Origin: a virus | Virus record (IMG/VR): IMGVR_UViG_3300006104_000052 | Location: 1-28,762 of that record | Reading direction: 5' to 3' (one strand) | Length of the DNA: 28,762 bases | Shown here: one piece after another, positions 9,306-24,767 of the stretch | How positions within the stretch are numbered: position 1 is the stretch's first letter | Layout of the letters: each line of letters starts with the position of its first letter | The notes under the pieces: generated by a model | Database searches by the model: none | Told to the model about the DNA's origin: nothing | What the model saw: only the letters and a program-made list of their open reading frames with translations | Translations under genes and position numbers: made by a program

Positions 9306-10181
9306 TCACGCCTCAATGAGCTTATACTTCTTGCCATCAATCTCGATAAGCTTGCCAACACATGAGGATTCAGGCTTCGATTCTTTCTTTGGAGCGGGAA
9401 CGATGACAAGCTTACCGTAACCCACATCACCAATAAATGTAGCGCATTGAATCTCATACTTGTCGATCGCGCATTTTTCATATACGTTAATTCCAGCGAA
9501 AACCGTCAGGCCAGCATTGATGCCCTCGCCAGCCTTGATGCCCTCGCCAGCATTGATGCCACAGCCAGCCTCGATGCCCGTGCCAGCCTTGATGCCCCAG
9601 CCAGCCTTGATGCCACAGCCAGCCTCGATGCCACAGCCAACATCGATGCCCCAGCCAGCCTCGATGCCACAGCCAACATCGATGCCCCAGCCAGCATTGA
9701 TGCCCGTGCCAGCCTTGATGCCCCAGCCAGCATTGATGCCACAGCCAGCCTTGATGCCATAGCCAGCCTTGATGCCCCCGCCAGCATTGATGCCCCAGCC
9801 AGCATTGATGCCCTCGCCAGCCTCGATGCCCCAGCCAGCCGTGATGCCCTCGCCGGCATTGATGCCATGGCCAGCATTGATGCCCTCGCCAGCCTTGATG
9901 CCCCCGCCAGCATTGATGCCCCAGCCAGCATTGATGCCCTCGCCAGCCTCGATGCCACAGCCAGCCTTGATGCCACAGCCAGCATTGATGCCCCAGCCAG
10001 CATTGATGCCACAGCCAGCGCCAAAAACTATGCTTCCGGTACAGCTTATGCCTTTATGGAAACGAATGACTCCTAGATCATCATCAGACGTAATATGCCC
10101 ATCGAAGTTTTCAAGATTCTGAGCACCGACATAGAAGTTGTTCTCGTCAAGGTGACTTTTAGCAATAGCGAATGTTTTCAT
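9306..10181 (-). CDS. hexapeptide-repeat solenoid protein (28 x GI-x-A-G-x)
   Basis: A 291-residue protein. Residues 1-57 form an N-terminal cap (MKTFAIAKSHLDENNF... with a DFDGHITSDDD-like acidic segment). Residues 58-225 are 28 consecutive six-residue repeats of the form G-I-(N/K/E/T/D)-(A/V)-G-(W/C/E/G/H/Y/T/L). A C-terminal cap follows, ending 'LIEIDGKKYKLIEA'. Positions 1, 2 and 5 are almost invariant, while 3 and 6 vary. This suggests a beta-solenoid with a conserved core and a variable exposed face carrying Trp, Cys or charged residues. There is no signal peptide. Similar GIxAGx-repeat proteins are known in phage and bacterial genomes without an assigned function. A structural/adhesive or polymer-forming role is only a guess. 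It is followed downstream by the small winged-helix-like gene. Confidence 0.7.
   Translation of the reverse strand: MKTFAIAKSHLDENNFYVGAQNLENFDGHITSDDDLGVIRFHKGISCTGSIVFGAGCGINAGWGINAGCGIKAGCGIEAGEGINAGWGINAGGGIKAGEGINAGHGINAGEGITAGWGIEAGEGINAGWGINAGGGIKAGYGIKAGCGINAGWGIKAGTGINAGWGIDVGCGIEAGWGIDVGCGIEAGCGIKAGWGIKAGTGIEAGCGINAGEGIKAGEGINAGLTVFAGINVYEKCAIDKYEIQCATFIGDVGYGKLVIVPAPKKESKPESSCVGKLIEIDGKKYKLIEA
9507..10010. repeat. 28 tandem copies of a degenerate 18-bp coding repeat
   Basis: Each unit reads roughly ATTGATGCCxxxCCAGCC on the plus strand and encodes one hexapeptide. Near-identical copies would allow slippage or recombination to change the copy number and shuffle variable positions. 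Because the unit is a multiple of 3 and lacks stops in several frames, long spurious ORFs appear on both strands here. Confidence 0.95.
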
Positions 10182-17923: not shown

Positions 17924-17931
17924 TATTTATG
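17924..17931 (-). promoter_or_regulatory. late-promoter-like octamer CATAAATA before the Sm-like gene
   Basis: One mismatch from TATAAATA; it overlaps the stop codon of the UvsW C-terminal fragment and lies 5 nt upstream of the Sm-like gene ATG. It is suggestive only. Confidence 0.3.
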
Positions 17932-18847
17932 AGATCGGCACTTCATGCACCTCAAAGTCAAATTTCTCTTTCGTATAGATCTTGGCGCGCTCGATGCCGT
18001 GAGTCAGCGTGTAGTTCTTCTGGCCCTTTCTCGAGAGATCGTCGGCGATGTCGTATACGGTCGTTGAACGTTCATCCTTGGTCTTTCTGAGACCACGGCC
18101 GATCGACTGAAGGACTCGCACCTGTGACTTGGTCGGAGAAGCAAAGACGATGTTGTGCAAATTCTTGATGTTGATTCCGGTCGAGAATGTACCAAACGAG
18201 GCGATGATGACGGAGCCTTCCTCCTTCTCCACCAGGCCGCGGATCCGTTCACGCTCGTCGGCATCTACCTCTCCGGAGACGAAGTAGACTTTTCGCTTGG
18301 TGTCCTTCAGCTTCTTCTTGACGGCCTCGAAGAGAGGCTCTCCATGCTTCTCGACAAACTGATACAGAATCAGACTATTGCCCTTGAGATCCGCGACCAG
18401 GTTCGTGATGAAGCGATTGCGTGGCTCATATGACGTCAGAAAGTCGAGCTCGTCCTGATAATCGAGGGAATCGTGCTCCTTGCGAATTGCCTCGGGATAC
18501 TTCAGCACGAGCATGTGAATCTTCAACTGAGCCAGAACATCCGCGTCGATGAGCTCATGTGTTGTCGTCACCTGATAGGTCGGACCGAAGCATCCTTCGA
18601 GCACCAGCTTATTGACCTTGGCATCCTCACCTCCCGGAAGCGTACCGGTCGTTCCGATGCGGAACCAAGCGTTCTTGAGCCAGCTCATGATCTTGGTCAG
18701 TGAAACGGCCTTGAACAGATGTGCCTCATCGCCAAAGACACCACCGAACTGCTCGAACCACTTGGGCCCCATGGTAACGGCCGACTGCCAGGTCGTGATG
18801 ATCACCGGTGGATCTACTTCTACTTTTTCAATCTTTCGAATTTTCAT
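17927..18847 (-). CDS. uvsW: UvsW helicase, C-terminal fragment
   Basis: Second part (306 aa) of the UvsW superfamily 2 helicase, which unwinds branched DNA and R-loops and helps the switch to recombination-dependent replication. It begins MKIRKIEKVEV, then rejoins UvsW at DPPVIITTWQSAV (motif Ib region). Motif II is GDEAH (39-43) and motif III 'IGTTGTL'; the second RecA domain follows with 'VYFVSGEVD', 'SFGTFSTGINIKNLHNIV' (V) and 'QSIGRGLRK' (VI). Walker A is missing because it lies on the upstream ORF, so this half cannot hydrolyse ATP alone. It is in frame with the N-terminal fragment, 63 nt after its stop, with two further stops (TGA, TAG) between. TTAGGTAGAG upstream of the ATG is a usable Shine-Dalgarno, suggesting independent translation. 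Confidence 0.93.
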   Translation of the reverse strand: MKIRKIEKVEVDPPVIITTWQSAVTMGPKWFEQFGGVFGDEAHLFKAVSLTKIMSWLKNAWFRIGTTGTLPGGEDAKVNKLVLEGCFGPTYQVTTTHELIDADVLAQLKIHMLVLKYPEAIRKEHDSLDYQDELDFLTSYEPRNRFITNLVADLKGNSLILYQFVEKHGEPLFEAVKKKLKDTKRKVYFVSGEVDADERERIRGLVEKEEGSVIIASFGTFSTGINIKNLHNIVFASPTKSQVRVLQSIGRGLRKTKDERSTTVYDIADDLSRKGQKNYTLTHGIERAKIYTKEKFDFEVHEVPIS

Positions 18848-19033
18848 AGAATACTCTACCTAATTTCCAGATCGAAACATCAATTGTTTCAGGTTTCATA
18901 AGTTTTGAAATTATATCAAATCATCTTTTAACGTAAGGTCTTTCGCTTTCTTCTCACCAAAACGTGTTGATACTATATCATTCGGTGATAGTATTCTAAT
19001 TGAACCATCTTCCAAAAAAACCTTTACTTTTTC
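18815..19033 (-). other. HINT/intein-like remnant at the uvsW break
   Basis: The last ~40 residues of the N-terminal UvsW ORF (EKVKVFLEDGSIRILSPNDI, then VSTRFGEKKAKDLTLKDDLI) are not UvsW-like. They resemble intein block B ('V.LEDG..I..TPDH...T..G...A.DL..GD.I'), with the usual TxxH reading SPND. The first 11 residues of the C-terminal ORF (MKIRKIEKVEV) resemble the start of a split C-intein (as in gp41-1, MMLKKILKIEEL). Block A (N-terminal Cys) and the terminal HN are absent, so splicing is not expected. Both sides carry the 9-nt direct repeat GAAAAAGTA. The stretch is AT-rich (30% GC at 18961-19020). Confidence 0.5.
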
Positions 19034-19669
19034 TTTTTTAGGATCTTTATCTTCTCCACCCATCAAAATGCTTATTGAAGAGTCAGCGTCGAAAGATGCA
19101 TCTTCAGATGAATAATTTGAAAAATCATTTTGCATTTGAAGAACTAAACTTCGGGTAGGAACGATGACGATTGCCTTCTTCGAAGAACCTTTGAGATGAT
19201 TCAGATACCATCGTAGAAGCTGATAGATGATCAGAGACTTACCAGAACCGGTCGGGGAAACCAGAAGGATCTTCTGAAGCTTGATCGCACGATCTATGGC
19301 ATCTTTCTGGTAATCCCTTAGCTCGAGCGGCTTATCGTCCGCCCCGGTGGCCGCATAAAGGCCTTCAGACGCTTCGGATTCAGCTTCTGAGAGGTCGGGA
19401 AGCCACAGCCCTGGTGCCAGTTCAAGTTCGTGTTTCCGTGAGTCCGCGTACTTCTGAAGGTGATGGAGCAGACCGGCCGGAAGAGTCTGATTACGAAGAT
19501 TGAACAAATGTATACGCCCATCCCATTGCCGACGCTTGAAGGCCGGAGAGAACTGATATCCGGCCGCAAAGAACGAGAAGAACTCAGATAGCTCCTGAAG
19601 GACTCCGGAATCCTCACAGGTCACGCGAAGGTGTGCCTGATCGATCGAATTGACGTGTATGATGGCCAT
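18911..19669 (-). CDS. uvsW: UvsW helicase, N-terminal fragment
   Basis: First part (252 aa) of the UvsW helicase. Residues 1-110 are the UvsW N-terminal DNA-binding region ('SPAFKRRQWDGRIHLFNLRNQTLPAGLL'). Then come the Q-like motif 'LELRDYQKDAIDRAI' (115-129), Walker A PTGSGKS (139-145) and motif Ia 'AIVIVPTRSLVLQMQNDF'. After 'SISILMGGEDKDPKK' the expected helicase sequence stops and an intein-like tail of ~40 residues runs to TAA at 18911. The sequence from about residue 175 onward is AT-rich, unlike the first part, as if exchanged with foreign DNA. The other helicase motifs are on the next ORF (17927-18847). A functional enzyme would need the two chains to assemble, with Walker A and DEAH of one RecA domain on different polypeptides. 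Confidence 0.92.
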   Translation of the reverse strand: MAIIHVNSIDQAHLRVTCEDSGVLQELSEFFSFFAAGYQFSPAFKRRQWDGRIHLFNLRNQTLPAGLLHHLQKYADSRKHELELAPGLWLPDLSEAESEASEGLYAATGADDKPLELRDYQKDAIDRAIKLQKILLVSPTGSGKSLIIYQLLRWYLNHLKGSSKKAIVIVPTRSLVLQMQNDFSNYSSEDASFDADSSISILMGGEDKDPKKEKVKVFLEDGSIRILSPNDIVSTRFGEKKAKDLTLKDDLI

Positions 19670-24257: not shown

Positions 24258-24767
24258 TTATTCCAATTTCCGCTGTTTTCTCTTTTCCCAGGCCAATCGC
24301 ATTTTTGCTCTAGACTCTTCTGATCTTTTAGATCCAATATGTGCGACTCTCGTTTTCTCTATAGACTCAGGAGAAAGTTTATAACGTTGTCGAGCCATGC
24401 TCATTTTAGCTCTAGTTTCTCGTGAATGCTTTCTTCCAATTGCTTTAGCCCTAATTTTTTCTTTAGTTTTAGCAGAATGAGTATAATTCCATCCTCGGGC
24501 TCCTGCATTATTATTATGCTGATTATAAAAATCCATACTGCCAGCAGCATCAACTGCTAATAAAATTTTAGTCTCAAGAGCAGCCATTTTTTCTTTACTG
24601 CCTGTGGCAATTATGTATCTTTCGAAATTATCAGGATTATTATAATAATCTTTCAAAAAAACTTTGCTTGAACAAATATATCCATCATTTAATGCCCCAG
24701 TATGATACCCCACGTATAGTCTATTATCTATTTTATTCCTCCAAGAATAGACGAAAGATTGGTTCAT
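24258..24767 (-). CDS. free-standing GIY-YIG homing endonuclease with NUMOD3-like repeats
   Basis: A 169-residue site-specific endonuclease of the Seg-like type, inserted between gp67 and gp21. The N-terminal GIY-YIG domain reads 'FVYSWRNKIDNRLYVGYHTG' (residues 5-24) and continues 'DGYICSSKVFLKDYY', 'FERYIIATGSKEKMAALETKIL' (catalytic Glu65) and 'YNQHNN'. The C-terminal DNA-binding part has three NUMOD3-like units: 'GRKHSRETRAKMSMARQ' (111-127), 'LSPESIEKTRVAHIG' (131-145) and 'KRSEESRAKMRLAWEKR' (147-163). The gene is far more AT-rich than its neighbours (25% GC at 24601-24660) and uses A/T-ending codons, implying recent arrival from an AT-rich phage. It is intact, starts 2 nt after the gp67 stop and leaves the gp21 Shine-Dalgarno intact, so it does not break the capsid operon. 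Confidence 0.92.
   Translation of the reverse strand: MNQSFVYSWRNKIDNRLYVGYHTGALNDGYICSSKVFLKDYYNNPDNFERYIIATGSKEKMAALETKILLAVDAAGSMDFYNQHNNNAGARGWNYTHSAKTKEKIRAKAIGRKHSRETRAKMSMARQRYKLSPESIEKTRVAHIGSKRSEESRAKMRLAWEKRKQRKLE

Follow-up and report, generated by a model that had tools for sequence, protein, structure and literature searches.

The DNA-repair helicase gene uvsW is broken in two in the stretch of bacteriophage DNA analysed here (the window, 28,762 nt), where the ORF list gives two minus-strand ORFs in the same frame, 63 nt apart. We favour the view, with a probability of about 0.7, that uvsW was fractured by a homing endonuclease of the PHROG 655 family which later decayed, and that the two chains would assemble, with the tail of the first chain acting as a docking piece. 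Split relatives carry the endonuclease between the halves and the window keeps its last 28 codons, which argues for an endonuclease-fractured gene rather than for an intein that decayed in place. The features concerned are the following.

17927 to 18847, minus strand: UvsW C-chain ORF, 306 aa; an added MKIRKI restart, then DEAH and RecA domain 2; matches PHROG 9690 (3.5e-92).
18719 to 18730, minus strand: DEAH (motif II) of the C-chain, read from the sequence.
18815 to 19153, minus strand: imported block, 339 nt, with limits set by BLAST ends; replaces 114 nt (L090:5517-5630).
18821 to 18829, minus strand: GAAAAAGTA, copy 2.
18831 to 18914, minus strand: endonuclease remnant, 28 codons, IISKLMKPETIDVSIWKLGRVFYENSKD, with its stop at 18828-18830; overlaps the C-chain start.
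18848 to 18910, minus strand: spacer between the uvsW ORFs, 63 nt.
18911 to 19669, minus strand: UvsW N-chain ORF, 252 aa; UvsW_N domain, Walker A, then a non-UvsW tail; Pfam matches PF21241 (3.5e-18) and PF04851 (8.2e-16).
18914 to 19033, minus strand: tail of the N-chain, EKVKVFLEDGS...KDDLI, homologous to the tails of L151/L152 and L184-L186.
19025 to 19033, minus strand: GAAAAAGTA, copy 1.
19235 to 19258, minus strand: Walker A of the N-chain, SPTGSGKS, read from the sequence.

According to Pfam and PHROG, the UvsW N domain and two RecA domains are present: UvsW_N and ResIII match the N-chain, Helicase_C matches the C-chain, and PHROG helicase families match both. The sequence-only reading had described two same-frame ORFs with Walker A on one and DEAH on the other, a break inside RecA domain 1 with an added restart on the second half, TAA, TGA and TAG stops, a 9-nt direct repeat at both edges and a tail of about 40 residues foreign to UvsW. 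All of this was borne out; the stops lie at 253, 258 and 270 of the read-through, respectively, and the window has two copies of GAAAAAGTA, starting at 19033 and at 18829, both on the minus strand, with none on the plus strand. Neither L151 nor L184 has the repeat at the matching edges, and it is therefore not a fixed part of the element. In a survey of the split site covering 82 uvsW loci, listed as the best 80 of at least 598, 73 have an open frame that runs through the site from 188 or more codons upstream, and none of these intact relatives carries the tail as normal helicase sequence; the other nine are cut by a contig end near the site or within the N half, and none of the 82 is split there. 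An assembly error is very unlikely as the source of the split, since five other IMG/VR contigs (L084-L088), with five different metagenome identifiers and including one contig of 118 kb, match across the break at 99.96-100% nucleotide identity. The N-chain scan returned all five at 100% protein identity, four over the whole 252 residues and L088 over residues 13-252, the latter match being shortened by the contig end; two of the five contigs are cut inside uvsW. Chance is likewise not the origin of the split, since the arrangement recurs in two other lineages.

These lineages are represented by L151 and L152, found with a scan using the 51 residues before the break (36 loci returned), and by L184-L186, found with a tail-alignment scan. 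Both have the same split site, a homologous tail of about 40 aa and a similar MKI restart, and in both an intact free-standing homing endonuclease lies between the uvsW halves. The N-chain of L151 and L152 ends in RIKLTMEDGSQKFLCPNELVMTEQGNKLAKDLTSKDSLV and is followed by a 279-aa ORF and then by the C-chain start M(K/R)IKKIETVEVETPV, while L184-L186 show the tail KIKLTMEDGSIQSYFPNDIVNTSNRGKIKAGDLTLKDDIV, a 276-aa ORF and then MKISKIDIIETPSPV. All C-chains begin M(K/R)I(R/K/S)KI before running into UvsW, and in the window, L151/L152 and L184-L186 both halves have added terminal residues. Within the limits of the contigs, both are open in all of these and in L084-L088. At 47% identity to each other, the middle ORFs of L151 and L184 match the PHROG 655 homing endonucleases at 9.2e-28 and 2.6e-30, as does MobE of Aeromonas phage Aeh1 at 2.7e-45. 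Pfam gives no HNH match in either middle ORF; they are labelled HNH because of matches to PHROG HNH families (PHROG 12434, 1.7e-15 and 9.9e-7) and of an HHI...N...REH pattern seen by eye. The 3' end of the endonuclease overlaps the C-chain start by 20 nt in L151 and 14 nt in L184, so that the endonuclease there shares its 3' end with the restart codons, whose window counterpart (MKIRKIEK) the sequence-only reading had likened to a C-intein start.

A wider scan of viral contigs for endonuclease relatives kept 80 loci of 358. Flanks were inspected by script for 65 of the 80, taking only the longest nearby ORF, and the three uvsW loci among these carry the tail, namely L210, L212 and L214, which are the L151, L184 and L186 contigs; the other 62 lack it, as judged by eye. 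In phage records, nine flanks of endonuclease matches were read by annotation and ORFs were listed for two. Klebsiella phage Metamorpho has a related endonuclease (L202:2995-3675) after uvsW and before a small ORF; the annotation puts this endonuclease within one joined helicase CDS, although the upstream uvsW ORF runs for 510 codons to its own stop. In Vibrio phage K469 (L192:2495-3370) a related homing endonuclease directly follows a PhoH-like gene and overlaps the next ORF.

The distribution of identity around the element is what homing would be expected to leave. When L151 and L152 are compared block by block (60 nt each), identity is 92-100% between about 5016 and 6155; beyond these limits it is 57-93%, bar one block at 100%. 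L184 and L186 are 100% identical across nearly the whole insert, 85-98% on its left side (the first block at 58%) and 92-100% to its right, where the tract has no sharp boundary, a point that counts against this reading. We count both tracts as a probable homing signature. In the window lineage the split is an imported block, since two near-isogenic contigs (L089 and L090), whose flanks are 98.5-99.9% identical to the window, have an uninterrupted uvsW with a different middle, 114 nt standing where the window has 339 AT-rich nt. UvsW of L090 is a single 505-aa ORF, and that of L089 is open for 343 codons to the contig end. Upstream of the insert, about 108 nt of the block are UvsW coding sequence that is divergent and AT-rich, being 53% identical to L090 with a GC content of 34% versus 50%; over the same stretch L146, L147 and L149 are 75%, 74% and 67% identical to L090. 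We infer that L090 represents the older state and that the window took up a foreign block together with flanking coding sequence, as expected of homing co-conversion; co-conversion of flanking sequence in homing is described in PMC2988022. No donor of block 18815-19153 was found in the searched sequences, and its DNA matched 31 phage records, with pieces of 6-12% of the query among the 30 listed.

What the block of the window retains of the endonuclease is its end. The 28 codons of IISKLMKPETIDVSIWKLGRVFYENSKD align with the L151 endonuclease over its 29 C-terminal residues (score 63, which none of 5000 shuffles reached; maximum 47) and with the end of the L184 endonuclease (score 56, reached by one of 5000; maximum 60); they overlap the start of the C-chain (TATGAAAAT) just as the endonucleases of L151 and L184 do. 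This alignment and the identical overlap point to the window element being the endonuclease-bearing element after a deletion, which by the lengths involved would have removed about 750 nt and spared the tail and the restart.

A close parallel is nrdA-a/mobE/nrdA-b of Aeh1: there too an essential gene is divided by a PHROG 655 endonuclease, whose ORF runs 14 nt into the second half, and both NrdA halves appear, as judged by eye, to bear added end residues. The gene differs, uvsW being the target here, and so does the fate of the endonuclease, which is gone from the window. The end of Aeh1 NrdA-a, unlike the window tail, does not score as intein block B (-0.9 bits), and the NrdA-b start is not among the matches. 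The Aeh1 NrdA tails themselves are reportedly required for assembly of the active enzyme. Fractured phage genes with split inteins have reportedly been found as well; split uvsW is like them in having an endonuclease between the halves of a phage gene and a block-B-like tail on the first half, and unlike them in lacking Cys1, the block B histidine and the terminal HN, without which splicing by the standard route is impossible. A further two-chain phage replication enzyme, although of a different gene, is the product of the split gene 43 of Aeromonas phages 25 and 44RR. According to PMC2988022, split NrdA of Aeh1 is fully functional, the halves of phage 25 gp43 co-purify with polymerase activity, and untranslated intercistronic sequence separates the gene 43 halves of 44RR, to which the 63-nt spacer of the window is somewhat similar. 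The same source gives T4 segE as a homing endonuclease with uvsW as target; unlike the endonuclease of the split genes, it is of the GIY-YIG type and lies between inh and uvsW, the gene not being split.

Several other features of these genomes deserve mention. The window gp43 DNA polymerase gene is also split, into minus-strand pieces at 2-538 and 560-2092 that lie 21 nt apart (43A, 510 aa; 43B, at least 179 aa), and the same split is found in the 118-kb contig; in the relatives G037, G038 and G040 gp43 is one open frame of 855-879 codons, and the split ends of the window gp43 do not score as block B. Directly upstream of the split uvsW of L184 (L184:3587-4420) an ORF with a GIY-YIG-like start, seen by eye, recalls T4 segE. 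In the window, the minus-strand ORF at 24258-24767 has a NUMOD3 motif and a sub-threshold GIY-YIG match and matches the PHROG 314 homing endonucleases (8.6e-24), and 9306-10181, on the same strand, encodes a 291-aa protein of short GI(N/K/E/D)AG-type repeats.

The tail appears to be constrained as protein between lineages, since in each of the three lineage pairs differences at third codon positions are roughly double those at second positions (30 versus 13, 24 versus 9 and 28 versus 15 over 44 aligned codons; Fisher p of 0.0006, 0.002 and 0.01), although the pairs, having a common history, do not amount to three independent tests. Its amino-acid identity between lineages is 48-57%, that of the N-chain body being 44-66%. 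The window-type alleles are nearly identical to one another, which puts selection after the loss of the endonuclease beyond measure in the window lineage. Using tblastn against phages at E up to 10, the window tail had no match and the L151 and L184 tails one weak match each (E 9 and E 2); a tail profile matched the pattern in 289 stretches of GTDB genomes, none of which was confirmed.

These data bear on whether the split gene is simply dead, a pseudogene in a lineage doing without uvsW, with meaningless tails. The recent import of the block and the loss of the endonuclease would suit such decay, as would the C-chain of L152 (L152:6097-7017), whose motif II reads AEAH where the window, L151, L184 and L186 have DEAH, which is either a damaged catalytic motif or a sequence error and counts against function. 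Nonetheless, both ORFs are open in the window and in the related split contigs as far as these reach, the tail looks protein-constrained between lineages, and neither tail nor restart was touched when the endonuclease was deleted. Inactivation is an unlikely account, if a conceivable one for the window lineage and for L152.

The sequence-only reading had proposed that a split intein decayed in place, that is, that an intein once spliced UvsW at this site and later lost its junctions. The likeness of the tail to intein block B, on which that proposal was built in part, partly stands. Against a small block-B profile of eight stretches, three of them partial, the window tail scores 12.7 bits, L184 9.3 and L151 2.5, and among 23,735 null windows (from ORFs of at least 250 codons in all six frames of the sequences gathered in this analysis) 0, 3 and 412, respectively, score as high; leave-one-out controls reach 7.3-50.6 bits, with 0-6 null windows as high. 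An earlier five-sequence profile gave 10.1 bits for the window, 4.1 for L151 and 9.1 for L184 (0, 0 and 1 of 1000 shuffles as high), and hhalign of the tails against seven of the eight stretches gave a probability of 71%. On the other hand, the block B TxxH histidine is missing, the aligned residue being D in the window and in L184 and E in L151, and the intein-profile search that had been proposed shows no intein or other family in the window tail in Pfam, NCBIfam and PHROGs, nor does Pfam show a family in the L184 and L151 tails. A PHROG 16259 match of the L184 tail (E 0.026) was set aside, because the final part of this profile is also matched by the native C half of UvsW from the L184 genome. 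Pfam detects one of two real block-B stretches and none of the three tails, and neither of two PDB sequence searches with the tail returned an intein among its seven matches. At E up to 10, PF14890 is absent from the L087 record and TIGR01445 from the L087, L089 and L090 records; at E up to 0.01, PF14890 matches 2 of 50 virus records, both with an intein at the DEAH site, and it is not a full intein test, since it missed the L068 intein present among the 50. Overall, the resemblance to a block B without histidine is suggestive, not established.

UvsW inteins do exist in relatives, which lends some support to an intein origin of the split. L162 (5226-5615) has a 130-aa mini-intein in the DEAH box (DE^C...SN^CH, PF14890), also found in the L164 contig, and L068 (1194-2237) a 348-aa intein at Walker A (TG^C...HN^SGKS) whose start resembles PI-SceI in the PDB and whose long middle part may be an endonuclease. 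Both, however, sit in catalytic motifs and not in the split-site loop, and when each of the three tails is compared with each of these two inteins no colinear block-B match emerges, the best pair by shuffling (L151 and L068, 0.04% of 5000 shuffles as high) lying outside the L068 block B. As far as reading of the sequences goes, all three lineages lack the block A nucleophilic Cys or Ser at the first junction, and all lack the terminal HN before the C-extein, so that the junctions would have to have been lost before the lineages diverged or repeatedly. With these losses common to all lineages, the low score of the L151 tail and the endonuclease as the part that decayed, decay of an intein in place is improbable.

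Least probable is a self-splicing RNA intron with an HNH endonuclease, which would yield UvsW as one chain from a spliced mRNA. Phage ICP1 does splice transcripts of genes interrupted by HNH endonucleases, according to PMC10448857. In five sources, however, no Rfam family reaches the gathering threshold (an undescribed intron family would escape Rfam), and with E values as high as 10 admitted for L184 4900-6200 and window 18700-19250, only sub-threshold snoRNA, microRNA and lncRNA matches appear. The fold of the endonuclease-free insert is ordinary (z -0.85), 40 of 200 shuffles doing as well. The protein-like evolution of the tail codons also speaks against an intron, as does the in-frame ATG with which the C half is provided.

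Fracture by the PHROG 655 endonuclease, with later decay, would have proceeded as follows. Inserting into the RecA domain 1 loop that precedes the VIxTWQS strand, the endonuclease would have broken the uvsW of T4-like phages, and the element closes the first half with a tail of about 40 aa and reopens the second at MKIxKI. Its spread would presumably be by homing, in which flanking uvsW is co-converted. The window lineage received it as the 339-nt block, from a more AT-rich uvsW, and has kept of the endonuclease only the last 28 codons. Both chains are most likely made and assembled into one RecA-type motor, with the tail, and perhaps also the restart, as a putative docking piece, by analogy with what is reported for NrdA-a/NrdA-b of Aeh1. 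The read-through folded from 51 sequences has a mean pLDDT of 81, with a confident helicase and the tail as a low-confidence hairpin (block means 34-53); a nine-sequence alignment gave a poor model (pLDDT 46), and a 54-row alignment with misplaced tails was not used for folding. T4 UvsW (2oca) is the best PDB match of the read-through model (E 1.9e-37, TM 0.43-0.50, with the domains placed differently), and the T4 UvsW fragment 1rif aligns with a TM of 0.86 by 1rif length. In this model the break lies between the RecA domain 1 strand 199-202 and the VIITT strand 289-293, and two chains meeting at this loop could rebuild RecA domain 1. The uvsW of L061 has an in-frame Ser/Arg-rich insertion in the same loop, which indicates that the loop tolerates insertion.

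Endonuclease-fractured genes are known as a kind from Aeh1 NrdA. No split uvsW is described in the literature searched on uvsW and the topic, to which few subscription papers belonged, nor in the accessible parts of PMC2988022, PMC3322345, PMC3267527, PMC3653736 and PMC10448857. Within that literature we also met no tail common to three lineages, no block-B likeness of such a tail and no endonuclease-free derivative that keeps it.

It is conceivable, if doubtful, that the tail is an intein (Hint) half-domain which lost splicing before or at its capture with the endonuclease and now acts as a non-covalent docking clasp. If this were true, a mobile endonuclease would carry its own repair kit, ending the first half in a stop and clasp and giving the second a restart, by which an essential gene could be broken harmlessly, and the clasp would outlive the endonuclease; an intein-derived tail would moreover link split inteins to the assembly tails of fractured genes. 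With UvsW, the short list of two-chain phage enzymes would gain a helicase that is divided between Walker A and DEAH. Related phages present three states of uvsW, the intact gene, the gene with an endonuclease and the split gene from which the endonuclease has been lost, and the endonuclease-free form allows the direct question whether the tails are kept for a purpose.
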